A DNA stretch of 22,454 nucleotides from a virus. Made by a program: the position numbers and the translations under genes. Below, piece after piece: positions 3 through 17,287 of this stretch. The stretch's first letter is position 1. Every line of letters begins with the position of its first letter. The notes beneath the pieces were generated by a model. That model saw only the letters and a list, made by a program, of their open reading frames with translations. It searched no databases and had not been told where the DNA came from. The stretch is from positions 1-22,454 of the IMG/VR virus record IMGVR_UViG_3300042291_001905; one strand, 5' to 3'.

Positions 3-509
3 CAAGAAGTTGATAAAGATCGATTATACTTCGTATCCGAAGTAGAGGAATTTAACCAATTATTTGGTAAATTGAATAATAAAATACCTACAATTCCTGA
101 AAAAATGGAACGTGATTTTATTTATAACTTTATTCAGGAAGAATTAGATGAATATAAACATGCGGCTGATGAAGGAGATATTGTTGAAGTATTAGATGCT
201 TTCTGTGATATTATGTACGTATTATCAGCAGGTATTATGGCATTTGGTTTAAAAGATAAATTTTTAGCTGCATACAACGAAGTACAACAATCTAATTTAT
301 CTAAATCATGTGCTACCGAGGAAGAAGCTGATGCAACTGCTAAGTTTAGAACTGCTGCATCGCAACGCCCCTGTCATTTTGAAAAACGTGGTAATAAATT
401 TGTAGTTTACCGCTCAGAAGACCGTAAAGTACAAAAATCATTATCATATTTTGCCCCTAATTTAAGACAATTTTTTACCGAAGAAGAATTAAAAAATGCA
501 AAACATTAG
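3..509 (+). CDS. MazG-like nucleotide pyrophosphohydrolase, 5'-partial
   Basis: The frame is open to the left edge of the window, so the true start lies upstream. The first in-window start-like codon (TTG at 72) is probably internal, because the residues before it read as normal protein. Numbering from the codon at 3, the metal-binding pattern of all-alpha NTP pyrophosphatases is visible: E46, E47 and E50 in EELDE, then E62 and D65 in EVLD, followed by D69. A segment reading SNLSK downstream is typical of phage MazG / phosphoribosyl-ATP pyrophosphohydrolase-like proteins. The family hydrolyses nucleoside triphosphates to monophosphate and pyrophosphate, and in phages is thought to tune nucleotide pools or alarmones; the substrate cannot be read here. 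The last ~50 residues are a basic/aromatic tail of unknown role. The gene overlaps the next one by 14 nt, suggesting cotranscription. Confidence 0.8.
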   Translation, partial: QEVDKDRLYFVSEVEEFNQLFGKLNNKIPTIPEKMERDFIYNFIQEELDEYKHAADEGDIVEVLDAFCDIMYVLSAGIMAFGLKDKFLAAYNEVQQSNLSKSCATEEEADATAKFRTAASQRPCHFEKRGNKFVVYRSEDRKVQKSLSYFAPNLRQFFTEEELKNAKH

Positions 510-1737
510 AAATTACATCGAAAATAATCAGGGACTAGAAATATTTACTATTCCTAATTTTTTAAATGATGATGAATGTGATTATTTATGTAATCATATT
601 GAAATTAATAATACTCGTTCTACTGTAGCTGGATCTGGATTAAAAAAATCAACATATGATAATGGACGCACAAGTAACACATCAGTAATTCCTGATAATG
701 ATCCTAAATTCCAATCTATTAATAATAAAATGTATGAGGAATTAGGAATTGCAAGTGAGTATTCAGAACCTACTCAAGGTCAAATTTATCAGGAAGGTCA
801 ATATTTTAATTACCATAATGATTATTTTGATGGGGATGGTTATACTAATCATTGTTTAGCTAGTGGGCAACGAACATGGACTTTTATGATTTATTTAAAT
901 GATGTAGAAGAAGGAGGTGAAACTGACTTTCCACGTATAAATCAAAGAATAGCACCTCAAAAAGGAACCGCTGTTGTTTGGAAAAATTCAAATGGAACCG
1001 GAAGTGAAAACCCAGCCGGTCATCATTCGGGTTTAGCTGTCGTGAAAGGAAAGAAAATGATTATTACTAAATGGTTTAGAGAAAATATGTATAATTCCAT
1101 CGAAGACGAAAGATTAGCAACAGAATATCATAATAAAAATAAAAAACGTAATTTTAATTCTCCAAGTGAATTACCAAAATTAAGTCCTTTAGGGTTTAAA
1201 GTAGTAAAAGTCCCAGAAAATACATGGAGATTAGTAAAAGAAGCATACAATTTATTACAATCAGTTAAAACAGTAGAAAGTTGGAATGGAATTACTGATT
1301 TTATTCATGATAATGATGGAAAAGCACCTGTTGAAATTTTTAACATGGATCATTGTTTTAGAATTAAAGAAATTATTTTAGAAGAATTAAAACCACTTCA
1401 TCAAGAATTCGCCCAAGGACGTTCAATAGAACCTTTTTGTATTTATGGTATTAGATCTTATATGAGAGGAGCTATACTAGAAAATCATACAGATAGACCC
1501 CAAACACATCATGTTTCTTCTATTATTGTAGTTGATAAACAAGTAGATAAAGATTGGGCATTAGATTTTCAAGATCATGATGGTGAATGGCATAAAATAT
1601 ATGCTGAACCTGGGGATTTGATTTTATATGAATCAGCAATTTGTAAACATGGTAGAATAGAACCATTTGATGGTGAGTTCTATAGAAATATGTTTATACA
1701 TTATAAATTATCAGATTATACTTATACAGGGCAATAA
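496..1737 (+). CDS. Tandem 2-oxoglutarate/Fe(II) oxygenase (prolyl 4-hydroxylase type)
   Basis: This 413-residue protein carries two oxygenase domains. The first (about residues 15-198) has the prolyl-4-hydroxylase arrangement: iron ligands H107 and D109 in YHND, distal H177, and K187 exactly ten residues later as the expected 2-oxoglutarate lysine, with the strand YLNDVEEGGET between them. The second (about 235-405) is more divergent: H331-T-D333 and distal H385 in CKHGR are present, and R397 is a plausible 2-oxoglutarate ligand. Members of this superfamily hydroxylate proline or other side chains using O2 and 2-oxoglutarate. The start lies inside the preceding gene; the stop is immediately followed by the next ATG. 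Its position directly ahead of glycosyltransferases related to hydroxyproline- and collagen-modifying enzymes suggests it makes the hydroxyl acceptor. The substrate is unknown, and a free amino acid or small molecule is not excluded. Confidence 0.87.
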   Translation: MQNIRNYIENNQGLEIFTIPNFLNDDECDYLCNHIEINNTRSTVAGSGLKKSTYDNGRTSNTSVIPDNDPKFQSINNKMYEELGIASEYSEPTQGQIYQEGQYFNYHNDYFDGDGYTNHCLASGQRTWTFMIYLNDVEEGGETDFPRINQRIAPQKGTAVVWKNSNGTGSENPAGHHSGLAVVKGKKMIITKWFRENMYNSIEDERLATEYHNKNKKRNFNSPSELPKLSPLGFKVVKVPENTWRLVKEAYNLLQSVKTVESWNGITDFIHDNDGKAPVEIFNMDHCFRIKEIILEELKPLHQEFAQGRSIEPFCIYGIRSYMRGAILENHTDRPQTHHVSSIIVVDKQVDKDWALDFQDHDGEWHKIYAEPGDLILYESAICKHGRIEPFDGEFYRNMFIHYKLSDYTYTGQ

Positions 1738-4485
1738 ATGGATTATATAGTTGTAAGTACTAGCAAATGCGACTATCAAGCTTGGCAGTTAAAATTGTTA
1801 TATTGGTCAATCAAAAAATCAAAACAAAAAGGTAAATTAGTATTATTAGTATCATCTGATGAATTACATGCTGGAGAAAATCCAGATTTTGATTTTCCAT
1901 CAGATGTAACTATTATTAATCAACCTGATTGGGCTTGGAAATGGAAAACTGAAAACGATGATTGGTGGGGAGGTATTCCTAACAAGTATAAAGCAGTTGA
2001 ATGGTTATGTGATAATAATTACTTCAAAGATAAAGATAAATTATTATTTTTAGACCCAGACATGGTGTTTAAGACACCAATAGATGTTGATATTGCAGAT
2101 AATCAAGTAATAGGTCAAAAATTTATTCATTTTCAAGATTTACCTGATTGGAAAAAATATAGTAGTTCTGAAGGTATAATGTATCCTTTTGCTTTAAAAT
2201 TTTCTACATTAAAGAAAATAAGCAAAGATTATACTAAATTCTGCGAACAAATAAGAAAGCAAACTGGAAAATGGGAATCTGAAATGTGGGGGCTGGATTA
2301 TGCTTTGAAGGAAAATAACATTAATATCAAATTAATTGAAGATTGGGGTACTTGCACTGAGTGGAATAGATTTAATGATAGAGATACTATTGGTAATTTA
2401 ATTCATTATCCTAATGAAATATTAAATGAAAATAATGATAGAATATTCTTTAAACAAGATTATACATTCACCCCAGACCAAAAAATATTATTAAATACAA
2501 CTAAAAATAAACTAGATAATCTACTACTTACAGATGTAGATCAACAACGTACAGACTATTTATATTATTTAAAATATAATTTTGATTCTATATTTAAATT
2601 TTATGATGGTTCTAAAGGGTATTTAATATTTAAACCTTGGCCTGGTGGTTTTAATAATATTAGAATGTCTATGGAGTTAGCAGTATGTTTAGCATATCTA
2701 ACAAATAGAACTTTAGTATTAACTCCTAAATATAGTATGTATTTACTTAAAGGTGAATCTAGTATGGATACCTTCTTTGATACATCTAATCTAGGAATTA
2801 AATCAATTTCATTTGATGAATTTTGTTCTTTAAAAAACATACCTAATAATTGGGATGAAATTAAAACTATTAGTAAAGTATTAAACTATGATGCTGTAGC
2901 TAATGTAATAAATTTTGAACGTATACCTCCACCCTCAAAGTTTTTAAAAGGTAGAAATTATATTAATGATGAAGATTATTTTACTAATGAAGAATGTATA
3001 TTTTTAGATAGTAATTTATTAGGTAGTAGTTATCAAGCAATTTATACTTGCTTAGATGATGAAATTAAAAAACTAATTGCTAAATATGTAAAATACAAAC
3101 CAGAAATATTTGATATAGCATGGCAGTTTATTAACTATTTAGAAGATAAATCATATTATTCAATTCATATCAGACGAAATGATTTTCAATATAAAGACTT
3201 ATTCATTACGTGTGAACAAATTTTAGATAATATTAAAGATATTATTCCTTTTGGTTCTAAACTATACATTGCAACTGACCAAAATGACCCATCGTTTTTT
3301 GATCCTTTATCTAAACATTATAGTTTATTCTTTTATGATGATATTCGTTCTAAAATTAAAATATATGATAAATTTGATGTAAATTATATTCCAATAATTG
3401 AACAATTAATCTGTACTCGGTCAATTAAATTTATAGGTAATAAACTATCTACTTTATCATCATACATTTATCGTTTAAGAGGATATATGGGTGATATTGA
3501 AGATAAAAATTATTATATAAACACCGAAAAATACAACCCAGGATTACAAGAAGTATTTACAATGGACAACAGTTATATTGCTAATTGGGCTCGTGAATAT
3601 AAAGATTCTTGGAATTGGTATAAAGGTAGAGTATTTGTATCTGTTGCTAGCTATTGTGATAGCAGAATTACAGATACTTTAAAAAGTATATATTCTGAAG
3701 CATGTGATGAAACCCGAATAGTTGTTGGGTTACATCTACAAGATACTCAAGAAGTATATGATGAATTATTAAAATTAAATTATCCAAATTTAAAAATTAA
3801 ATTTACATTAAAAGAAAATGCTAAGGGGGTAGTATGGGCAAGGAATAAAATTCGAGAAGAATTATATCAAGGTGAAGAATATTTCCTTCAAATTGATTCT
3901 CATTCAAGGGTAAAAAAGAATTGGGATGCTATTTTAATTAATCAATATAATAGTATTGAACAACCAAAAGTTGTAATTACTACATATCCTAATCACTTTG
4001 ATATGCCCGATCCAGAAAAAAAGTATTTAGATTTACCATATAATACTCCACTTCGCATCAGACAATTTTTAGATGATTATAATCTTAAAGATAATAGAGT
4101 AAGAGCTGAAAATTTACCTTCCCTTCAAGACTATGAAGTAAAAGAAACAAGATGGGCAGGTGCTGGGTTTTTATTTACTCAAAAACAATGGGTAGATGAA
4201 GTAACAATGCCTGATGAAATTATATTTAATGGAGAAGAAGATTTTTTAACTTTTTTAAGTTATTTAAAAGGGTGGAATTTATTTGTTCCTTCTGAAGCTA
4301 CAGTATGGCATAATTATGAGTTCCGTTTAGCTGAAGATGAAAAACCATACCGAGAACATAATAATTCATATTTGATAAATGATAATTCTATAGAATCTGT
4401 AAATAATATGTTATTTAATTCAGAATTTGAACGAAATCTTGAGCAGTTAGAAGAATATTTTAATTGGAAATTTAGACGTATATAA
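1738..4485 (+). CDS. Three-domain glycosyltransferase (GT-A, O-fucosyltransferase-like, Skp1 GlcNAc-transferase-like)
   Basis: A 915-residue protein reads as three enzymes in one chain. Residues ~1-245 look like a GT-A transferase with the DPD motif (D106, D108) and resemble eukaryotic hydroxyproline/serine galactosyltransferases; this is the least certain part. Residues ~295-590 resemble the protein O-fucosyltransferase fold: PGGFNNIR near 302-309, HIRR at 477-480, ATDQ at 512-515, and a C-terminal segment with STLSS at 571-575. Residues ~630-870 match the GlcNAc-transferase family that includes the Skp1 hydroxyproline enzyme: VSVASYCD at 634-641, DSH at 720-722, AGAGF at 807-811, GEEDF at 832-836, WH at 857-858. 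The third domain is a paralogue of the separate gene at 5178. The gene follows the oxygenase without a gap. Such a chain could add successive sugars to one acceptor. Donors and acceptor are inferred only. Confidence 0.82.
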   Translation: MDYIVVSTSKCDYQAWQLKLLYWSIKKSKQKGKLVLLVSSDELHAGENPDFDFPSDVTIINQPDWAWKWKTENDDWWGGIPNKYKAVEWLCDNNYFKDKDKLLFLDPDMVFKTPIDVDIADNQVIGQKFIHFQDLPDWKKYSSSEGIMYPFALKFSTLKKISKDYTKFCEQIRKQTGKWESEMWGLDYALKENNINIKLIEDWGTCTEWNRFNDRDTIGNLIHYPNEILNENNDRIFFKQDYTFTPDQKILLNTTKNKLDNLLLTDVDQQRTDYLYYLKYNFDSIFKFYDGSKGYLIFKPWPGGFNNIRMSMELAVCLAYLTNRTLVLTPKYSMYLLKGESSMDTFFDTSNLGIKSISFDEFCSLKNIPNNWDEIKTISKVLNYDAVANVINFERIPPPSKFLKGRNYINDEDYFTNEECIFLDSNLLGSSYQAIYTCLDDEIKKLIAKYVKYKPEIFDIAWQFINYLEDKSYYSIHIRRNDFQYKDLFITCEQILDNIKDIIPFGSKLYIATDQNDPSFFDPLSKHYSLFFYDDIRSKIKIYDKFDVNYIPIIEQLICTRSIKFIGNKLSTLSSYIYRLRGYMGDIEDKNYYINTEKYNPGLQEVFTMDNSYIANWAREYKDSWNWYKGRVFVSVASYCDSRITDTLKSIYSEACDETRIVVGLHLQDTQEVYDELLKLNYPNLKIKFTLKENAKGVVWARNKIREELYQGEEYFLQIDSHSRVKKNWDAILINQYNSIEQPKVVITTYPNHFDMPDPEKKYLDLPYNTPLRIRQFLDDYNLKDNRVRAENLPSLQDYEVKETRWAGAGFLFTQKQWVDEVTMPDEIIFNGEEDFLTFLSYLKGWNLFVPSEATVWHNYEFRLAEDEKPYREHNNSYLINDNSIESVNNMLFNSEFERNLEQLEEYFNWKFRRI

Positions 4486-5181
4486 ATGATAAAACTTGAT
4501 AATGTTACTTTATGCACAGTAAGTAGTGTTCATATAGATGACCACGTAAGAGCTTTAAATTATTCATCTCAATATTTTAAATTTGCTGAAACTAAATTCA
4601 TTACACATAAAGAAATAAACGAGCCTGGAATCGAATGGATAGAATGTGAAGAAATAAAAAGCCAAAATGAATATAGTTTTTTCATGGTAAATAAATTTCC
4701 TCAGTATATTAATACCGATTTTGTTTTATTAGTACAAGCTGATGGTTTTATTATTAATCCTCACAAATGGACTGATATATTCTTAGAATATGATTATATA
4801 GGTGCTCCTTGGCCTGATGAGCCACAGTGGGGATTTACAGGAAATACTAGAGTAGGAAATGGTGGGTTTTGTTTAAGATCTAAAAAACTTATTAATTTAC
4901 CTATACAATTAGATTTTAGAAATCGAACTATGGATTTTGATACGTGGCATGAAGATGCTTTTTATTGTATCCATAATAGAAGCTTATTAGAAAGTAATGG
5001 GTGTAAGTTTGCTCCTTTAGAAGTAGCAAAACATTTTTCTCATGAACTACATGAAATAGATTTAGAAGGTATAGAACCTTTTGGATTTCATGGAAGACCT
5101 AGAAAAGAATTCTATGATTTTAAAAATGAACATTTAAAACGTGCTAATTTGCGCCCTCAATATTATAACTACAGTCTATGA
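4486..5181 (+). CDS. DUF5672-like putative glycosyltransferase
   Basis: A 231-residue protein matching the pattern I associate with the DUF5672 family: QADG at 84-87, a YIGAPW strand at 104-109, VGNGGF at 123-128, an acidic EDAF at 156-159, FSHE at 184-187 and FGFHG at 199-203. This family recurs in glycan and surface-polysaccharide loci and looks like a GT-A-type transferase, but its reaction is not established. There is no signal peptide or membrane segment, so it should act in the cytoplasm. The gene starts right after the stop of the three-domain transferase, and its own TGA overlaps the next ATG (ATGA, 4 nt), so translation of the two is probably coupled. Confidence 0.75.
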   Translation: MIKLDNVTLCTVSSVHIDDHVRALNYSSQYFKFAETKFITHKEINEPGIEWIECEEIKSQNEYSFFMVNKFPQYINTDFVLLVQADGFIINPHKWTDIFLEYDYIGAPWPDEPQWGFTGNTRVGNGGFCLRSKKLINLPIQLDFRNRTMDFDTWHEDAFYCIHNRSLLESNGCKFAPLEVAKHFSHELHEIDLEGIEPFGFHGRPRKEFYDFKNEHLKRANLRPQYYNYSL

Positions 5182-6182
5182 TTTTTGTAAGTATAGCCTC
5201 ATATAGAGATAAAGAACTGATAAAAACTGTTAATAGTTGTTTATCTAAAGCTAAACATCCTGAAAATGTTAGAATTGGAATTTGTTGGCAATATGATGAT
5301 GAAGAAGATATAACTGCATTAGATGATATACCTCAAGTACAATCTTACAAAGTATGTTGGGAAGATGTAGAAGGAAGTGTGTGTTGGGCTAGAAGTATTA
5401 TTCAACAAAAATTCTTTAATGATGAAGAATACTACTTTCAGATAGATTCTCACACATTATTTGCCCAAGATTGGGATGAAATATTAATTAATATGTACAA
5501 TGAGTTACCAACAGACAAAGCAGTAATATCAGTTGGTCCCCCATATTATTATGATTTATCAGCAGAAGGTGCTTTACCTCATTTAGAATGGGAACCTGTA
5601 GATTTTATAGATGGTATTTACCGTGATAGTGTTATTCAAAAACAAAAATTAGATAGTGCTGGTGGTATTCATTTTATGTATGGATTTTTACCAGCTGAGG
5701 ATATTTCAAAACCAATTCCTGCTAGGCATATAAGTGCTGCTTTGTTATTTACTGTTGGAAAATGGGTTAAAGATGTACCCTATGATTCTGATTTATACTT
5801 TGCTGGTGAAGAACCTACATTAACTTTAAGAAGCTATACTAACGGATATGATATATTTAATCCGAATAAATTTGTAATTTGGCATTTAAAATATAATTTT
5901 TCACATAGAAAACGTCATTGGAATACATTTGATCAAAAAGTTATTGATCAAAAATCCCATATTAGTTCTCAAAAATATAATAAAATAGTAGCAGGTAATG
6001 AATTAGGAGTATATGGTTGTGGAAAAGAACGTAGTTTATTAGATTGGGAAATATATTCTGGGGTATCATTTAAAGATACCGCAGCTCATCCTGATGTATT
6101 TAAAGGTGTTATTCCAAATCCTATAACAATTACAGATTTAAATGAATGGGAATTAATAAAATTAAAGAAAAATGAAATTTAA
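5178..6182 (+). CDS. Skp1-type hydroxyproline GlcNAc-transferase-like protein
   Basis: This 334-residue protein shows the conserved points of the GlcNAc-transferase family (PF11397-type, named for the Dictyostelium enzyme that puts GlcNAc on hydroxyproline of Skp1). These are VSIASYRD at 4-11, CWARS around 69-73, the metal-site-like DSH at 90-92, a core strand near 182-192, GEEP at 210-213 and WH at 235-236. Family members are cytoplasmic and use UDP-GlcNAc; that donor is inferred here. The first ~110 residues and the GEE region parallel the C-terminal domain of the 915-residue protein upstream, so the two look like duplicated relatives. Residues ~255-334 lie beyond the usual core. It overlaps the preceding gene by 4 nt and the following one by 11 nt. 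Bacterial homologues of this family exist with unknown acceptors, so the hydroxyproline acceptor rests on context. Confidence 0.85.
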   Translation: MIFVSIASYRDKELIKTVNSCLSKAKHPENVRIGICWQYDDEEDITALDDIPQVQSYKVCWEDVEGSVCWARSIIQQKFFNDEEYYFQIDSHTLFAQDWDEILINMYNELPTDKAVISVGPPYYYDLSAEGALPHLEWEPVDFIDGIYRDSVIQKQKLDSAGGIHFMYGFLPAEDISKPIPARHISAALLFTVGKWVKDVPYDSDLYFAGEEPTLTLRSYTNGYDIFNPNKFVIWHLKYNFSHRKRHWNTFDQKVIDQKSHISSQKYNKIVAGNELGVYGCGKERSLLDWEIYSGVSFKDTAAHPDVFKGVIPNPITITDLNEWELIKLKKNEI

Positions 6183-6765
6183 AGATTTTTACACAGACGG
6201 ACAATCTAATAATATTTGGGATTGTGATAAGGGAACTAATCATTCATATATAGAACATTACTATGATTTAGAATTCTCAGATAAAAGATCTAAAGATTTA
6301 AATTTTTTAGAGATTGGAATTTGGGAAGGAAGTTCTTTAAAGTTATGGAAGAGTTGGTTTGTAAATGCTAACATAATCGGAATAGATGACGATAGTGGTA
6401 TATTTGGTAATCTAAGAAGATCAAAATTTAAACATATTCCAGGAGCTGAAATGATTTGGGGAGATGCTTATTGTAATGATGTTACAAATAAATTTGAAAA
6501 TAATTATTTTGATTATATTATAGATGATGGGCCTCATACTTTTGAATCTCATGAATTATGTATTAAAAAATGGTTACCTAAATTAAAATTTGGAGGGAAA
6601 TTAATAATAGAAGATATATTTTATCTTAGTCAGGATCCATCTCCCCTAGTTGGAGAACAATTAGTTTCATTGTTAGATAGTAATTTACATGATTTTCGCT
6701 TTTTTGACTTCAGAGAAATTAAAGGAAGAGGAGATGATATTATTTTAGAAATAACTAAAAAATAA
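6172..6765 (+). CDS. Class I SAM-dependent methyltransferase
   Basis: A 197-residue Rossmann-fold methyltransferase. Motif I reads LEIGIWEGSS (46-55), the acidic end of strand 2 is IGID (69-72), and the metal/substrate region DDGPHT (118-123) precedes GGKLIIED (141-148). The DDGxHT element is typical of the Methyltransf_24 group, whose relatives O-methylate sugars and small molecules in glycan and natural-product clusters. Placed between glycosyltransferases, it most likely O-methylates a sugar of the phage glycan; the position methylated cannot be deduced. The start overlaps the 3' end of the previous gene by 11 nt. The alternative, a small-molecule methyltransferase unrelated to the glycan, is less likely given the neighbours. 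Confidence 0.82.
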   Translation: MKFKDFYTDGQSNNIWDCDKGTNHSYIEHYYDLEFSDKRSKDLNFLEIGIWEGSSLKLWKSWFVNANIIGIDDDSGIFGNLRRSKFKHIPGAEMIWGDAYCNDVTNKFENNYFDYIIDDGPHTFESHELCIKKWLPKLKFGGKLIIEDIFYLSQDPSPLVGEQLVSLLDSNLHDFRFFDFREIKGRGDDIILEITKK

Positions 6766-6769
6766 AATA

Positions 6770-7540
6770 ATGAAATTAATAGTATTAAGTCAATACACAT
6801 TAGATAAAAGATATGAAGAAATTTCAAACTTACATAATGATTATTGTTTAAGTAAATTTATAGATTTAAAAATTCCAACTATAAAATATTGTGGGAGTCG
6901 AGCATATCAAACTATTAAAAGTGATTTAGACTTAAATATAGATTTTAATAATGAACCTTATAAATATATTCAAGATGAAAATCAACTTTATATAAATTGT
7001 GCTGATCTATTAGATTATACAGATGATATAGATCCTAGAGGTATAAAAACATATTATGCTTTTAAGTATTTATTAGAACATTTTGATTTTGATGTATTGT
7101 TTAGAACTAACTGTACTTCTTATTTAGATGTTAATAAAATAATAGAAGAAAGTAAAATGCTTCCTTGTAAAAAATTATATACTGGAGCTATTGCGGGGAT
7201 GAAAGATATATGGTTTGTTATTAGTGCATATAATTATATTTCAAGAGATTTAGTTGAGCAAGTAGTATCACATGGGGATAGATATCTTGAACTCACCTGT
7301 GATAATATAAGTAAAGGTTCTACTGAAGTTTTTGAAGATATTTGTATAGGTAAATTATTTAAAGAATTAGGATTAGATTTAGATATGGAAAATCAACCTT
7401 TTCTTATACATCCATTTTATTACAAAACTCCAGAATCAATAAAAAATGGAATTCAAAAACAAAATGAACGTTCTTCATATAGATTTAATGCAGAATATGT
7501 AGAAGGATTTAAAATGATCCATAAACTTTTTAAAAATTAA
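6770..7540 (+). CDS. GT31/fringe-like putative glycosyltransferase
   Basis: A 256-residue protein with the layout of small GT-A galactosyl/GlcNAc transferases. A helix TYYAFKYLLEH (95-105) leads to the strand FDVLFRTNCTSYLD (107-120), which sits where GT31 enzymes carry their DxD. A strand plus helix (about 149-165) resembles the YxxSRDL segment, and EDICIG (189-194) parallels the conserved EDVxxG. The canonical DDD is replaced by RTNCTS, so metal binding or activity could differ. There is no signal peptide. It starts 4 nt after the methyltransferase stop and ends 1 nt before the next gene. Assignment to a GT-A transferase is fairly safe; the GT31 relationship is a motif-level inference. Confidence 0.6.
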   Translation: MKLIVLSQYTLDKRYEEISNLHNDYCLSKFIDLKIPTIKYCGSRAYQTIKSDLDLNIDFNNEPYKYIQDENQLYINCADLLDYTDDIDPRGIKTYYAFKYLLEHFDFDVLFRTNCTSYLDVNKIIEESKMLPCKKLYTGAIAGMKDIWFVISAYNYISRDLVEQVVSHGDRYLELTCDNISKGSTEVFEDICIGKLFKELGLDLDMENQPFLIHPFYYKTPESIKNGIQKQNERSSYRFNAEYVEGFKMIHKLFKN

Positions 7541-7541
7541 A

Positions 7542-8255
7542 ATGAAAATATTAGTTTGGGGAATAGAATCAGATTTAAAAACTGCTGAAACTAAAGCAGA
7601 ATATTTATTAAATACAGCTAAATATTTTGGTGTAGATGTTGAATTAATTGGAATAGGACATACTTTTACAAATTTTACCAACAGATTATATATACTACAA
7701 GATTATCTTAAAGATATTAACCCTGAAGAAGTTATATTAGTAATGGATGGATACGATACTTTATTTAACAATACTGTAGAATATACTTTATCTCAATTTC
7801 ATCAAAAAAATACAAAAATATTAATATCATCAGAGAAATTATTTACATACCAGTGGGGAAAATTTCAACATAAATTTGATACTATAAATTCAGACTACAA
7901 ATATGTTAATGCTGGAACTTTTATGGGATATGCTGGTGATTTAAAAATAATGGTTGATGAATTGTTTGAAATTTATAAACTTTACCCAACTGATATAGAT
8001 CAAGGATTACTTGGGGTATGGGTTTATAATAATTTTGAAGATAATAAAAAAGTACAATTAGATACTAATTGTGATGTATTTTGGGTAACTAGTAAAGATT
8101 GGGATGTTTTAAAAAATATTGATATCGAAGAAAATATATCTAATCCTTCAACTAACTCAAAACCATTTGTAATTCACAACACAGGAAACGGAGATCCTAA
8201 TTTATACGAATCTTATAAAAACGCATATAATAAAATAATATCAAATTATGAATAA
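7542..8255 (+). CDS. PLOD/LH3-like collagen-type glycosyltransferase
   Basis: The 237 residues follow the glycosyltransferase domain of procollagen-lysine hydroxylases (PLOD, LH3). VILVMDGYDTLF (64-75) corresponds to the metal-binding TDSYD strand; ILISSEK (93-99) to the FSAEE segment; YVNAGTFMGYA (121-131) to the GSGGFIGYA segment; DIDQGLL (151-157) to the DSDQ segment. LDTNCDVFW (173-181) and VIHNTGNG (210-217) match the family's LD-x-x-C-x-x-F and HGNG segments. LH3 transfers glucose to galactosyl-hydroxylysine and has galactosyl activity; the phage donor and acceptor are unknown. The oxygenase domain fused to it in animals is absent, but a two-domain oxygenase lies at the head of the same gene run. 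It overlaps the next gene by 8 nt. Confidence 0.8.
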   Translation: MKILVWGIESDLKTAETKAEYLLNTAKYFGVDVELIGIGHTFTNFTNRLYILQDYLKDINPEEVILVMDGYDTLFNNTVEYTLSQFHQKNTKILISSEKLFTYQWGKFQHKFDTINSDYKYVNAGTFMGYAGDLKIMVDELFEIYKLYPTDIDQGLLGVWVYNNFEDNKKVQLDTNCDVFWVTSKDWDVLKNIDIEENISNPSTNSKPFVIHNTGNGDPNLYESYKNAYNKIISNYE

Positions 8256-9243
8256 AAAAGCACTAGTATTAGGAGCAGGAGGTTTTATAGGGAGCCATTT
8301 AGTTAAAAGATTAAAATCTGAAGGATATTGGGTAAGGGGAGTTGATTTGAAATTACCTGAATTTTCCTCATCAGAAGCTGATGAATTTATTATTGGAGAT
8401 TTAAGAAATCCATCATTAGTATCTAAAGTATTATACGCCCCACATCAATTATCAGAACAGGATAACGAGAACTCATTTGATGAAGTGTATCAGCTAGCTG
8501 CAGATATGGGAGGTGCTGGTTATATTAATACTGGTGATAATGATGCGGAGGTAGTGCATAATTCTATGTTAATTAATTTAAATGTAGTACGTGAAGCTCA
8601 TAAAAAATCAATTAAAAAAATATTTTATGCTTCATCTGCTTGTGTTTATAATGAGCACAATCAATTAGATCCTGAAAACCCAATTTGCACAGAAAATTCA
8701 GTATATCCTGCTTATCCCGATTCAGAATATGGGTGGGAAAAATTATTTTCAGAGCGATTATATGCAACATACAATCGTAATTATGGATTAGATATTCGTG
8801 TTGCTCGTTTTCATAATGTATTTGGACCTGAAGGTACATTTTATGGGGGAAAAGAAAAAGCACCAGCAGCAATATGCCGCAAAGTAGCTGATTCATTAAT
8901 GGATGAAGAAATTGAAGTGTGGGGTGATGGTCTACAAACACGTTCATTTTTATATATTGATGAAGCAATTGAAGGTGTTCGCCGCTTAATGAAATCAAAT
9001 TATATTGAACCTATTAATATTGGTTCCGATTATATAATTTCAATGAATAGTTTAACTAGAATGGTAATTAAACTAGCAGGTAAACGAGCAGGAATTAAAA
9101 ATATTCCTGGCCCACAAGGTGTTAGAGGTAGAACATCAGATAATACACTAATTAAAGAAAAATTAGGCTGGGAACCTACACAACCGCTTTATATTGGTTT
9201 GGAAAAAACGTATAAATGGATTCAATCTCAAATGTTTTCTTAA
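8248..9243 (+). CDS. gme: GDP-mannose 3,5-epimerase
   Basis: A 331-residue extended short-chain dehydrogenase very close in pattern to plant GDP-mannose 3,5-epimerase. The NAD-binding GAGGFIGSH is at 9-17, AADMGGAGYI at 84-93, and ASSACVY at 128-134 with the acid/base cysteine C132. The Y161-K165 pair lies in YGWEK, RFHNVFGPEGT is at 187-197, and the second acid/base lysine K204 lies in EKAPAA. GDGLQTRSF (226-234), NIGSD (257-261) and GPQGVRGRTSDN (288-299) complete the family signature. The enzyme converts GDP-mannose to GDP-L-galactose (and GDP-L-gulose). Length is normal for the catalytic core. L-galactose is 6-hydroxy-L-fucose, so its product is a plausible donor for the O-fucosyltransferase-like domain encoded at 1738. 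It overlaps the PLOD-like gene by 8 nt. Confidence 0.9.
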   Translation: MNKKALVLGAGGFIGSHLVKRLKSEGYWVRGVDLKLPEFSSSEADEFIIGDLRNPSLVSKVLYAPHQLSEQDNENSFDEVYQLAADMGGAGYINTGDNDAEVVHNSMLINLNVVREAHKKSIKKIFYASSACVYNEHNQLDPENPICTENSVYPAYPDSEYGWEKLFSERLYATYNRNYGLDIRVARFHNVFGPEGTFYGGKEKAPAAICRKVADSLMDEEIEVWGDGLQTRSFLYIDEAIEGVRRLMKSNYIEPINIGSDYIISMNSLTRMVIKLAGKRAGIKNIPGPQGVRGRTSDNTLIKEKLGWEPTQPLYIGLEKTYKWIQSQMFS

Positions 9244-9260
9244 TTTATTTTAAATAGATT

Positions 9261-10340
9261 ATGTACGATTATTTAATTATTGGAGCTGGATTATTCGGTT
9301 CTATATGTGCTAGAGAATTAACTAATGCAGGTAAAAAAGTATTAGTGATTGATAAACGAGACCACATAGGTGGAAATTGTTATACTGCTGATGTAGGTGG
9401 AATTAACATTCATGTTTATGGTCCTCATATATTTCATACTAGTAATAAACAAGTATGGGATTATATAAACCAATTTGCTGAATTTAATCATTTTACTTTA
9501 CGGCCTAAAGTTAAATATAAAAGTAATATATACTCGTTTCCTATTAATTTAATGACTTTGCATCAAGTGTATGGAGTAACTACCCCTCAACAAGCTGAGT
9601 TAATATTAGATTTAGAAAGGATACCAAATGATAAACCTAAAAATTTAGAAGAATGGATTTTATCTCAAGTAGGAGAAAAAATATACGAACGTTTTATTAA
9701 AGGATATACTACTAAACAATGGGGAAGAAGTCCTAAAGAACTACCATCTTCAATCATTAAACGATTACCTATTAGATTAACTTATGATGATAACTATTTT
9801 AATGATAAGTATCAAGGTATTCCTATTGGTGGTTACACTCAAATATTTGAAAAATTATTAAAAGGTATTGAAGTAAAACTAAATATAGATTATTTAGAAG
9901 ATAAAGAAAATTTAGATAATTTAGCACATAAAATAATATACACAGGACCTATAGATAAGTTTTATGGATATGCTTATGGAAATTTAGATTATCGTTCATT
10001 ACGATTTGAAAGCGAATATCTTGACATTCCTGATTATCAGGGGAATGCTCTTATAAATTATAATGAAGAAGAAATTCCATATACTCGAATTGTTGAGCAT
10101 AAACACTTTGAATTTGGAAAACAAGATCATACTATTATTACTCGTGAATATCCATCAACTACAGGTGAGCCTTATTATCCTATAAATGATGAAAAAAATA
10201 ATAAAAAATATGATCTATATAAAAAATTAATGCTACAAGAGGAAAAACATATATTTGGAGGACGATTAGCTGATTACAAATATTATGATATGCACCAGGT
10301 AATTGCATCTGCATTACATCAAGTTAAATTATTATTGTAA
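9261..10340 (+). CDS. glf: UDP-galactopyranose mutase
   Basis: A full-length 359-residue flavoenzyme (E. coli Glf is about 367) converting UDP-galactopyranose to UDP-galactofuranose. The FAD dinucleotide motif GAGLFGS is at 8-14 and an acidic residue closes strand 2 (VIDKRDHIGGNC, 29-40). HVYGPHIFHT (51-60), the TKQWG block with W154 and IPIGGYT (187-193) line the substrate cleft. The FAD-binding end GGRLADYKYYDM (333-344) is intact. It starts 17 nt after the epimerase stop and closes the glycan block before the DNA polymerase. It implies galactofuranose in the glycan made by the neighbouring transferases, though none of them is a recognisable galactofuranosyltransferase. Confidence 0.96.
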   Translation: MYDYLIIGAGLFGSICARELTNAGKKVLVIDKRDHIGGNCYTADVGGINIHVYGPHIFHTSNKQVWDYINQFAEFNHFTLRPKVKYKSNIYSFPINLMTLHQVYGVTTPQQAELILDLERIPNDKPKNLEEWILSQVGEKIYERFIKGYTTKQWGRSPKELPSSIIKRLPIRLTYDDNYFNDKYQGIPIGGYTQIFEKLLKGIEVKLNIDYLEDKENLDNLAHKIIYTGPIDKFYGYAYGNLDYRSLRFESEYLDIPDYQGNALINYNEEEIPYTRIVEHKHFEFGKQDHTIITREYPSTTGEPYYPINDEKNNKKYDLYKKLMLQEEKHIFGGRLADYKYYDMHQVIASALHQVKLLL

Positions 10341-14526: not shown

Positions 14527-15003
14527 ATGTATTTAACACTCTTAAACGAGAGAAACAACTCTGTTTCTACATTCGACAAAGTCTTTGACGACTTATTAAA
14601 AAAACAATTCCCAGAATTACAAAAAGAAACCGGACTATCATTTACTCAAGGATCATATCCTAAAGTTAATGTTATCGAGTTCGATGATAAAGTTAGAATC
14701 GTAGCAGAAATTGCTGGATTAACTAAAGATGATATCAAAATCGATATTGATGAATATGTTATGACTATTTCAGGTGATTCACATGTTAAAAATGATGAAA
14801 ATGGTACTTACTTAATTAAGGAACTAAAACATTCATCATTTAAACGTTCATTCACTTTTGGAAATAAATTCGATATGGAAAATGTTACAGCTGAATTTAA
14901 TGAAGGTATCTTAAATGTTGAAATTGCTAAAAAGACACCTGAACCTAAAATATCTAAGCGGGTAGAAATCGTATCTAAATCCAATAAAAAATTACTTAAA
15001 TAA
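14527..15003 (+). CDS. Hsp20 / alpha-crystallin small heat-shock protein
   Basis: A 158-residue small heat-shock protein. The alpha-crystallin domain spans about 45-136: it opens with YPKVNVIEFDD and contains VAEIAGLTKDDIKIDI (59-74). It closes with the family's A-x-x-x-N-G-I-L equivalent, EFNEGILNVEI (123-133). A hydrophobic V-x-I motif (VEI at 146-148) in the C-terminal tail suits oligomer docking. Members hold unfolding proteins for refolding by other chaperones; small Hsps are widespread in T4-like phages, especially cyanophages. It heads a block with GroES and GroEL but is separated from them by a strong terminator, so its transcript may be controlled separately. Confidence 0.93.
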   Translation: MYLTLLNERNNSVSTFDKVFDDLLKKQFPELQKETGLSFTQGSYPKVNVIEFDDKVRIVAEIAGLTKDDIKIDIDEYVMTISGDSHVKNDENGTYLIKELKHSSFKRSFTFGNKFDMENVTAEFNEGILNVEIAKKTPEPKISKRVEIVSKSNKKLLK

Positions 15004-15006
15004 ATT

Positions 15007-15031
15007 AAAAGGACGTGGTTCCCGTCCTTTT
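15007..15031 (+). terminator. Rho-independent terminator after Hsp20 gene
   Basis: A perfect 9-bp stem, AAAAGGACG (15007-15015) with CGTCCTTTT (15023-15031), encloses a 7-nt loop 3 nt after the Hsp20 stop. The T-run is partly within the stem. It is the clearest intrinsic terminator in the window and isolates Hsp20 from the GroES-GroEL genes. Confidence 0.8.
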
Positions 15032-15067
15032 CTTAATTAAATTTACGTATAAACGAAAATAGAAGTT

Positions 15068-15364
15068 ATGTCAGAAGAAAAAAGATCATTTGGTCGGGTT
15101 AAAGGCCAGACAAAATCCCAATCCATCATTGCGGATCCTTTATTGTTTCCCTATGAAATTAATGTAGATGAATACAGTTATGTAGTAATAGATTCATCAA
15201 AAAGTGGAAATAATTTTTGTGGAAGCTTTACAGATTTAGCTAATGCAGTAAACAAAATTATCCAATACCAAATGGCAAGTAAACGTAATACCACTTCACT
15301 AAGTGAATACGTTAGCGAATTTAAATTAATTAAATCAAAAATAAAAGACTTATTAGAATTATGA
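15068..15364 (+). CDS. Unknown 98-residue protein upstream of GroES
   Basis: I do not recognise this protein. It begins with a polar, basic stretch (residues 1-18), continues with a probable beta segment YSYVVIDSSKSGNN (37-50), and ends in two amphipathic helices (about 54-70 and 78-97) rich in lysine and leucine. There is no signal peptide, cysteine pair or nucleotide-binding motif. The stop overlaps the GroES start (ATGA), so it is probably translated with the chaperonin genes. The nearest terminator is upstream, making this the first gene of the GroES-GroEL transcript. Any link to folding is positional only. Confidence 0.7.
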   Translation: MSEEKRSFGRVKGQTKSQSIIADPLLFPYEINVDEYSYVVIDSSKSGNNFCGSFTDLANAVNKIIQYQMASKRNTTSLSEYVSEFKLIKSKIKDLLEL

Positions 15365-15660
15365 TCAAAGCAGTATTTGACAACATCGTAGTAAAAAAAG
15401 ATGATACCGGAGATAAAATGTACGGTTCAATTGTAATCCCAGATATGGGAAAAGAAATGCCACATATTGGAACCATTGTTGATATTGGTCCTGGAAAGGT
15501 TAATCATATGGGGCAGTTTATTAGTACTACATTTAAAATTGGAGATAAAATAATTTTACCTAAAATAGGCCCAGTTAGGGTAGATTATGACGGAGAAGAA
15601 TATCTCGTAACATCAGAAACTAATATTTTAGCATTAATCGAAACAGAAGAAAATGAATAA
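15361..15660 (+). CDS. groES: GroES-like co-chaperonin
   Basis: A 99-residue Cpn10 (E. coli GroES is 97). The N-terminal strand AVFDNIVVKK matches the family start. The mobile loop carries the hydrophobic tripeptide IVI (24-26) that contacts GroEL. HIGTIVDIGPGKV (35-47), FKIGDKIILP (58-67) and the final VTSETNILALIE strand complete the barrel. It shares 4 nt with the upstream gene and 8 nt with groEL, an operonic arrangement like that of bacteria. In T4, gp31 replaces host GroES for capsid folding; here a genuine GroES-type sequence is paired with a phage GroEL. Confidence 0.93.
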   Translation: MIKAVFDNIVVKKDDTGDKMYGSIVIPDMGKEMPHIGTIVDIGPGKVNHMGQFISTTFKIGDKIILPKIGPVRVDYDGEEYLVTSETNILALIETEENE

Positions 15661-17287
15661 ACAAATTGTATTTAATCAAGAAGCAAAATCCAGCTTATTA
15701 AAAGGTGTAATCAAATTATCAGATGCGGTTACAGCTACATTAGGACCCAATGGTCGTAACGTAATTATTGAAAATCAAGGTGGTAATCCAACATCAACAA
15801 AAGACGGTGTTACGGTTGCAAAATCTATCTCATTAAAAGATCCAATCGAAAATGTTGGAGCCCAAATCTTAAAACAAGCAGCAATTAAAACAGCTGATTT
15901 AGCTGGTGATGGTACTACAACTACTACATTACTTGCTTCAACTATGGTTGAATATGGTTTTGATGCTATTAAAGCAGGATCGAATGCAGTAGAAGTTAAA
16001 CGTGGTATTGAAAAAGCATCTAAAGAATTAATTTCTAATTTAAAAGAAATTTCTCAAGATATTACCTCAGATGATCAGATTCATCAAGTAGCTGTAATTT
16101 CAGCAAACGGTGATGAAGAAATTGGTGCTTTGATTTCCGAAGCAATGAAAGCAGTAGGTGCTGATGGTGTAGTAACTGTTGAAGAAAGTAAAATTGGAGA
16201 AACCAATTTAGATATTGTAGAAGGTATTCAGTTTGATAAAGGATATAAATCATTGTATTTTGTTACTAATAACGATACAATGACTGCTACATTAAATGAT
16301 CCTCAAATTTTAATTTATAATGGAGTTTTAACTACAATTAAAGATCTATTACCATTACTTGAAGGATGTTCTCAAGCGCAAAGCCCATTATTAGTTATTG
16401 CTGAAGAAATCGATGGAGAAGCATTATCAACATTGGTTGTAAACAAAATGAGAGGTATTATTAAAGTTGCAGCAGTTAAAGCTCCTGACTTTGGTGATCG
16501 TCGTTTACATATCTTAGAAGATATTGCTGTAATAACTGGAGGTACAGTAGTATCGCCTGAAAAAGGAATGCGTTTAGATAAATTTAAATCTGAATGGTTA
16601 GGTAAAGCTCGTTTAGTTACTGTAGCTAAAGAATCAACTACAATTGTAGATGGTAAAGGCGAGAAAGAACAAATTGAAGCTCGTATTGAAGAATTAAAAA
16701 CTCAAATCGATAAAGCTAATTCATATTTTGAAATTGAAAAGTTACAAGAGCGTTTAGGTAAATTAACTGGTGGTGTAGCTATTATCAATATTGGAGCTGC
16801 AACTGATGTAGAAGTTAAAGAAAAGAAAGACCGTGTTGATGATGCTTTACATGCAACTAAAGCTGCCTTGCAAGAAGGTATTGTTGCTGGTGGTGGTGCT
16901 GCTTTATTACATGCTCGTAAAAAATTAGATACTGAATACGAAACAACAGATTTAGAACTAGGTCGTCAGATTGTTCGTAAAGCATGTTTAGCTCCATTTA
17001 CTAAGATTTTAATTAATGCTGGTTATGAAGAAATTGATACTTGGGATTTAGTTAATAATGTTAGCAAATCTGAATCAACAGACGGTTATGATTTAAAATT
17101 AAAAGAAATAGTTAATTTTGTTGAAAAAGGTATTATTGATCCTACTAAAGTAACTCGATTAGCATTAGAAAATGCAGTATCAGTAGCAGGTACAATACTT
17201 ATTACAGAGGCTATTGTTTACGAAGAGCCTGAAAAAGAAAAAAATAATGACCCTATGGCGGGTTTTGGAAATGGAATGTATGAATAA
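15653..17287 (+). CDS. groEL: GroEL-like chaperonin
   Basis: A complete 544-residue group I chaperonin (E. coli 548). LGPNGRNV (30-37), TKDGVTVAKSI (49-59) and AGDGTTT (84-90, with D86) form the ATP site. The ATPase aspartate D397 lies in DDALHATKAAL, and the AGGGAAL loop follows. The C-terminus ends DPMAGFGNGMYE, a shortened version of the flexible glycine/methionine tail. It should form a folding cage with the adjacent GroES. Full-length GroEL is uncommon in phages, but has been described in some large ones. Residues in the apical domain are more divergent from bacterial GroEL than the equatorial motifs, suggesting adaptation to particular substrates; this is an impression, not a measurement. 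Confidence 0.95.
   Translation: MNKQIVFNQEAKSSLLKGVIKLSDAVTATLGPNGRNVIIENQGGNPTSTKDGVTVAKSISLKDPIENVGAQILKQAAIKTADLAGDGTTTTTLLASTMVEYGFDAIKAGSNAVEVKRGIEKASKELISNLKEISQDITSDDQIHQVAVISANGDEEIGALISEAMKAVGADGVVTVEESKIGETNLDIVEGIQFDKGYKSLYFVTNNDTMTATLNDPQILIYNGVLTTIKDLLPLLEGCSQAQSPLLVIAEEIDGEALSTLVVNKMRGIIKVAAVKAPDFGDRRLHILEDIAVITGGTVVSPEKGMRLDKFKSEWLGKARLVTVAKESTTIVDGKGEKEQIEARIEELKTQIDKANSYFEIEKLQERLGKLTGGVAIINIGAATDVEVKEKKDRVDDALHATKAALQEGIVAGGGAALLHARKKLDTEYETTDLELGRQIVRKACLAPFTKILINAGYEEIDTWDLVNNVSKSESTDGYDLKLKEIVNFVEKGIIDPTKVTRLALENAVSVAGTILITEAIVYEEPEKEKNNDPMAGFGNGMYE

Follow-up and report, generated by a model that had tools for sequence, protein, structure and literature searches.

The stretch analysed here (IMG/VR virus record IMGVR_UViG_3300042291_001905, 22,454 bp, taken as a whole and hereafter called the window) encodes a T4-like DNA polymerase (PHROG 262, E = 3e-150) whose best isolate match is Microcystis phage Mel-JY01, at 34% identity. 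At positions 1738-4485 it carries a single open frame, uninterrupted from its ATG to its stop codon, that encodes a glycosyltransferase (GT) fusion of 915 residues. An earlier note, made from the sequence alone, had described three GT domains in this one chain and placed the fusion directly behind an oxygenase gene. Both statements were borne out: the three domains were recovered by Pfam profiles, by matches of homologues to HPAT, the plant hydroxyproline O-arabinosyltransferase family, and by predicted folds, and the start of the fusion at 1738 is the base right after the oxygenase stop at 1737. The core of the locus consists of the following features.

496-1737, plus strand: two-domain 2-oxoglutarate (2OG)-Fe(II) oxygenase, 413 residues (PF13640, E = 1.4e-17; PDB chains; conserved ligands).
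1738-4485, plus strand: fused three-domain GT, 915 residues (AlphaFold2 pLDDT 90.5, pTM 0.88; identical copy in three other contigs).
1738-2580, plus strand: domain 1, residues 1-281, a GT-A domain related to HPAT/GT95, with DPDM at residues 106-109 (PF23452 matches of homologues, AlphaFold2, Foldseek).
2620-3489, plus strand: domain 2, residues 295-584, an O-FucT/POFUT-like GT-B domain (PF10250, E = 2.5e-25; Foldseek matches to POFUT2/POFUT1; motifs).
3634-4482, plus strand: domain 3, residues 633-915, a GT60-like GT-A domain with DSH at residues 720-722 (PF11397, Foldseek, motifs).

The three-domain fusion is real. The full chain was found at 100% identity in three contigs of other IMG/VR records, and in the divergent contig L019 domains 1 and 2 are likewise fused, at 38% identity, therefore the fusion is not a product of assembly. 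A frameshift joining separate genes was ruled out in the same way, as the fusion recurs in other contigs, in identical as well as in divergent form. AlphaFold2 predicted the whole chain with confidence, and Foldseek searches with this model matched POFUT2/POFUT1 and GalNAc-transferases. All three domains have GT folds in the predicted structures, and an alignment of homologues showed that the catalytic motifs are kept in each of them.

Domain 1 had been read in the earlier note only as a GT-A domain with a DPD motif. Fold and motif stood, and the domain proved to be of the HPAT family, not a Gal-type or PgtA-like module. The AlphaFold2 model of domain 1 alone (pLDDT 91.6) matched GT6-type GT-A enzymes in Foldseek (E about 2e-8). 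Residues D106/D108, W179 and H223 are invariant, with DPDM as the DxD metal motif on the GT-A fold. The homologue from L019 scored 50.5 bits against the HPAT profile PF23452 (E = 2.5e-13, profile positions 3-253 of 307; cut-off 23.9 bits), the homologue from L070 scored 36.1 bits, and HPAT was matched at E ≤ 0.01 by 21 of the 26 domain-1 homologues, none of which matched another GT family. The window sequence itself reached 17.7 bits (E = 0.0025), with no other family matched. On the strength of the homologue profile matches, the Gal-type or unclassified GT was replaced by the HPAT family, to which domain 1 is assigned at family level and through its homologues. A search of the PDB with the domain 1 sequence gave no sequence relative, and domain 1 alone had no match among annotated phages.

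Domains 2 and 3 agreed with their first description as an O-fucosyltransferase-like GT-B domain and a GT-A domain resembling the Skp1 GlcNAc-transferase. The O-FucT profile PF10250 aligns with domain 2 across its full length, and the motifs GGFNNIR (GGxNNxR) and HIRRND (HxRRxD) are conserved, with N306/N307/R309 and H477/R479/R480/D482 invariant. The Skp1 GlcNAc-transferase family profile PF11397 matches residues 683-892 (E = 4.2e-36); invariant positions in domain 3 are D720/H722 of the DSH motif, E833/E834/D835 of a GEED motif and H858, and the fold matches are GalNAc-T2-type GTs.

The oxygenase comprises a prolyl 4-hydroxylase (P4H)-like N half (H107xD109...H177, K187) and a second oxygenase-like C half (H331xD333...H385). 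In all 49 two-domain homologues both halves retain their iron ligands, and the metal and 2OG ligands of the N half (H107, D109, H177, K187) are kept throughout. The closest PDB chains to the N half are the prolyl 4-hydroxylases 5iax, 3itq, 2jig and 7zsc, the nearest solved relatives being Bacillus, Chlamydomonas and human collagen-type enzymes, and no Skp1/HIF-type PHD appeared in the PDB match list of the oxygenase. By these matches the N half resembles collagen/algal prolyl 4-hydroxylases, which supports the suggestion, already made in the earlier note, that three GT modules behind a prolyl-hydroxylase-like oxygenase are a plausible hydroxyproline assembly line. The C half (1141-1737) also matches PHROG 2954 and PHROG 3531, both labelled ferrochelatase, and one record of cyanophage S-SCSM1 gives its C-half homologue the same name. 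This label looks wrong, since the C half keeps the 2OG-oxygenase HxD...H in 49 of 49 homologues.

A search with domain 1 returned 54 viral loci and 3 loci in bacterial metagenome-assembled genomes (MAGs). The architecture that the earlier note had proposed to look for elsewhere, domains 1-2-3 in one frame, is present in about 40 contigs, and at 90% domain-1 identity at least 18 of the 25 groups in all have the full fusion. Its extent varies: L059 has domains 1-2 only, four-module chains occur in L047 and L063-L067, and L056 encodes a five-module chain of 1519 residues (HPAT-like, O-FucT, GT60, GT60, PLOD), in which the fourth module shares 58% and the fifth 54% identity with the separate window genes at 5178-6182 and 7542-8255, respectively. 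Other GT families close the chains in the Bacteroidetes MAGs L077 and L078. In most loci the oxygenase directly adjoins the fusion. Unfused genes for oxygenase, O-FucT and HPAT adjoin one another in the viral contig G013 (L069) and in L079, which comes from a Myxococcota MAG. Few bacteria have domain 1: there was a match in 1 of 284 Myxococcota genomes and one solid and one marginal match in 395 genomes of the phylum of L078, and a widespread bacterial origin was rejected on this account.

Several further observations were made at these loci. The frame of the GT fusion is interrupted in L037 (9001-11665), L043 (8401-11154) and L046 (7125-9861), and in the first and last of these the break lies close to where domains 2 and 3 meet. 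For all three contigs natural fission and sequencing error are both possible. In L077 (917-1396, 1399-3252) a signal-bearing (TVSPTVSPT)n protein, an IPTL-CTERM protein and a GT_PLOD-DUF1796 fusion lie near a five-module GT of 1533 residues. Upstream of the oxygenase, L019 (3351-8970) carries QueC/QueE/FolE2-like genes, judged by eye from the translations, which suggests 7-deazaguanine DNA modification in this relative.

Long proline-rich repeat proteins are encoded beside the cluster in relatives of the window phage. Their repeats are (APTTAPTTAP)n in L070 and L071, (APTPAP)n in L062, (APTPSPVTP)n in L067, and (TPSPV)n and (TPSIT)n in L053. G012 has its proline-rich gene close to appendage-like genes, of which one matches a virion structural family. 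In the Myxococcota MAG a Tat-signal-like (SSPTTSPT)n protein (L079:4571-5569, minus strand) stands beside the unfused two-domain oxygenase, O-FucT and HPAT genes, which suggests that this locus is a cellular version of the system. An open reading frame (ORF) counted as rich if a stretch of 60 residues held 12 or more [TSAP]P dipeptides, and repeats counted as strong from a score of 20 upwards. Because the score over 60 residues, the thresholds and the set of contigs were fixed only once the first repeats were known, the p-values below are descriptive and not pre-registered. Of 25 dereplicated groups, 13 have a rich ORF near the cluster. Among 80 viral loci taken at random one has such an ORF, as has one of 79 loci around related DNA polymerases, and this last locus is itself cluster-bearing. 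In 9 of 10 long cluster-positive contigs, representing 6 of 7 lineages, the distance from the cluster to the nearest rich ORF is 38-434 bp (permutation p combined over seven lineages, 7e-9). Nine of the 10 long contigs with the cluster have strong repeats, and none of 7 related contigs lacking it does (Fisher p = 4e-4 by contig, 5e-3 by lineage). The linkage of proline-rich genes to the cluster is thus strong. It is not exclusive, because the cluster-negative T4-like phage G023 has TITPSITP-type repeats and the isolate S-SCSM1, with an O-FucT and 2OG oxygenases, has no long proline repeats.

Two other candidate substrates were discarded. Collagen-like proteins were rejected as a general substrate, as the Pfam collagen profile was over its cut-off in 1 of 18 contigs, where the protein is of GTSG type with about 1% proline, and the neighbour of the Mel-JY01 P4H was rejected as it is not proline-rich. 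Upstream of the cluster in the contig of L047, a collagen-like GTSGTSG-repeat protein of 679 residues (L081:17925-19964) has repeats almost without proline.

Downstream of the fusion the window continues with further cluster genes, including two for sugar-nucleotide enzymes.

4486-5181, plus strand: DUF5672 protein, probably a further GT-like member of the cluster (PF18922, E = 1.9e-23; copies 66-82% identical in the L070, L073 and L075 clusters).
5178-6182, plus strand: separate second GT60-like GT, 334 residues (PF11397, E = 2.8e-47; 58% identical module in the L056 chain).
6172-6765, plus strand: cluster methyltransferase (PF13578, E = 4e-8; 71% identical copy in L073).
6770-7540, plus strand: cluster protein of 256 residues (no Pfam match; weak relatives in the L071, L075 and L051 clusters).
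7542-8255, plus strand: GT_PLOD protein of the collagen hydroxylysine GT family (PF25342, E = 3.8e-21; 54% identical C-terminal L056 module).
8248-9243, plus strand: GDP-mannose 3,5-epimerase (GME), for GDP-L-galactose/GDP-L-gulose supply (Arabidopsis GME 2c59, E = 9.8e-92).
9261-10340, plus strand: UDP-galactopyranose mutase (UGM), for UDP-galactofuranose (UDP-Galf) and possibly UDP-arabinofuranose (UDP-Araf) (TIGR00031, 399 bits, cut-off 304; 1i8t, E = 6e-146).

The GME alignment to 2c59 covers the SAC(V/I)Y and (K/R)EKAPAA segments, and in many relatives a GME gene lies near or beside the fusion. The O-FucT-like domain may transfer L-galactose, because GME is present and no GDP-fucose pathway genes (GMD/GFS) were recognised in the 36-kb contig of the window phage. 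The donors implied by the neighbouring genes would be GDP-L-galactose from GME and UDP-Galf or UDP-Araf from UGM, not the GDP-Fuc and UDP-Gal of the Skp1 pathway, and the furanose donor made by UGM could suit an HPAT-like enzyme. UGM as a constant partner of the cluster was not supported, as it accompanies the cluster only in the window lineage. Further along the window (14527-17287), Hsp20, GroES and GroEL genes follow the sliding-clamp gene, and GroEL lies near the polymerase in most related contigs.

Taking the domain families, the adjacent oxygenase and the neighbouring genes together, we consider it somewhat probable that one chain with three active GTs and the oxygenase beside it form a phage-borne line for hydroxyproline O-glycosylation. 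The recurrence of oxygenase and fusion, the four- and five-module chains, the unfused gene sets of L069 and L079, the O-FucT gene set between two 2OG oxygenase genes in cyanophage S-SCSM1 and the proline-rich genes of relatives all speak for it. In this scheme the oxygenase would hydroxylate prolines of Thr/Ser/Ala-Pro repeats, and the HPAT-family domain would place the first sugar onto hydroxyproline, probably in furanose form (Araf or Galf, for example). The O-FucT-like domain would then add an L-sugar, probably L-galactose supplied by the neighbouring GME, and the GT60 domain would contribute GlcNAc or a sugar like it, attached to the growing chain or straight to a further hydroxyproline. 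Other GTs of the cluster might extend the glycan, and the likely substrates would be extensin- or mucin-like proline-rich repeat proteins of virion appendages. We infer here that the window phage behaves like its relatives.

The closer counterpart of such a line, by analogy, would be the plant and algal hydroxyproline-rich glycoprotein pathway (P4H and HPAT/GT95 acting with extensins, arabinogalactan proteins and the Chlamydomonas mastigoneme protein MST1) rather than the Skp1 pathway. The likeness lies in the P4H-like oxygenase, the HPAT-family GT and the T/S/A-P proline-rich repeats, the last in relatives of the window phage, whose own known sequence shows none. In Chlamydomonas, the hydroxyproline-linked glycans of the cell-wall protein GP1 contain L-Araf and D-Galf, and the poly-proline regions of mastigonemes carry O-glycosylated hydroxyprolines throughout (PMC11015965); the D-Galf of GP1 would fit the UGM of the window. 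Unlike plant HPATs, which have a type II membrane anchor, the phage chain begins directly with the catalytic domain, and unlike the plant and algal pathway the system is phage or bacterial, has its GTs fused in one chain and has O-FucT and GT60 modules attached. GME and a bacterial UGM are found in the window, whereas the plant pathway has a UDP-arabinopyranose mutase.

A number of points weigh against the proposed line. The window's domain 1, taken alone, falls below the HPAT cut-off, and UGM is not a conserved companion of the cluster. CAZy GT95 was founded on HPAT1-3 and is related to GT96, the family of the extensin peptidyl-serine galactosyltransferase (PMC8012813), therefore the acceptor prediction for domain 1 is of limited fineness and the domain might act on serine instead. 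The link to the substrate rests on the relatives, because neither the window nor the 36-kb contig of the same phage contains a proline-rich repeat protein. The repeats of G023 and their absence from S-SCSM1, described above, count on the same side. Moreover, plant arabinosylation favours contiguous hydroxyprolines, whereas the phage repeats are mostly non-contiguous.

The sugar-nucleotide and methyltransferase genes around the fusion would also fit a polydomain GT whose task is to build a virion glycan or to modify host surface polysaccharide, with the oxygenase and the proline-rich genes mere neighbours in a mixed appendage/glycan region. The model for this is A111/114R of chlorovirus PBCV-1, which, like A064R and as judged by its published description, is a viral single polypeptide with three GT domains of about 300 residues, and which acts on capsid-protein N-glycans with Gal, Xyl and Fuc (PMC7826918). 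Unlike the window fusion, A111/114R has no HPAT or GT60 module in that description. PBCV-1 encodes a prolyl 4-hydroxylase too (PMC7826918, PMC7019647), with no report of its working with A111/114R, and no hydroxyproline was found in PBCV-1 virions (PMC7019647). In S-SCSM1, ORF112-113-114 encode a 2OG oxygenase, an O-FucT 27% identical to domain 2 and a 2OG oxygenase 37% identical to the C half of the window oxygenase, with a GME gene nearby, and its O-FucT and GTs were published as cell-wall modification genes (PMC9602691). Unlike in the window, these genes are separate, there is no HPAT match and the GDP-L-fucose pathway is present. A glycan builder of this kind leaves unexplained why the oxygenase directly adjoins the fusion in most loci, why HPAT, O-FucT and oxygenase keep together even where they are unfused (L069, L079), and why the proline-rich genes lie much nearer than chance; two of the three families in the fusion, HPAT and GT60, are known for hydroxyproline acceptors. 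We regard this explanation as unlikely.

Somewhat more doubtful is a scheme of parallel initiation, in which domains 1 and 3 would act on different hydroxyproline, serine or threonine sites and domain 2 would O-fucosylate or O-L-galactosylate serine or threonine, giving a mucin-like brush of single sugars. Members that initiate on protein are known from each of the HPAT, GT60 and POFUT families, the repeats hold much threonine and serine besides proline, and L059 has domains 1 and 2 without domain 3; the strongly kept domain order and the chains of four and five modules, however, look more like chain extension.

Regulatory glycosylation of one specific proline in a host or phage regulatory protein, as by PhyA, Gnt1 and PgtA on Skp1, is very improbable, although domain 3 belongs to the Skp1 GlcNAc-transferase family and a 2OG oxygenase lies upstream, as the oxygenase is of collagen/algal P4H type and not PHD/PhyA type, domain 1 is HPAT-like and repeat proteins adjoin the cluster in relatives. 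The Dictyostelium/Toxoplasma Skp1 system does share with the window a 2OG prolyl hydroxylase followed by GT60 and further GTs on hydroxyproline, including a multi-GT protein, and differs in having a single Skp1 site where we propose a repeat protein. Beyond domain 3 and the overall scheme of hydroxylating first and glycosylating afterwards, the comparison does not hold, and the analogy to Skp1 and PgtA drawn in the earlier note was not supported, the implied GME and UGM donors also speaking against it.

HPATs are described from plants, and in the open-access literature we found no report of HPAT, hydroxyproline glycosylation or hydroxyproline-rich glycoproteins for phages. We give about an even chance to the broader view that phages and a few bacteria independently make extensin- or mastigoneme-like hydroxyproline-rich glycoproteins, in which a prolyl hydroxylase and a one-chain line would build furanose/L-galactose/GlcNAc glycans on appendage or secreted proteins. 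The natural chains of two, three, four and five modules offer a test bed for the question whether fused GTs act in assembly-line order and, if the proposed line holds, would be a source of single-chain HPAT/POFUT/GT60 enzymes for glycoprotein engineering. On the same condition a function would be at hand for the 2OG oxygenases, which many aquatic T4-like phages have and which are as a rule assigned to host metabolism, and phages would own a self-contained route to stiff, sugar-coated proline-rich fibres.

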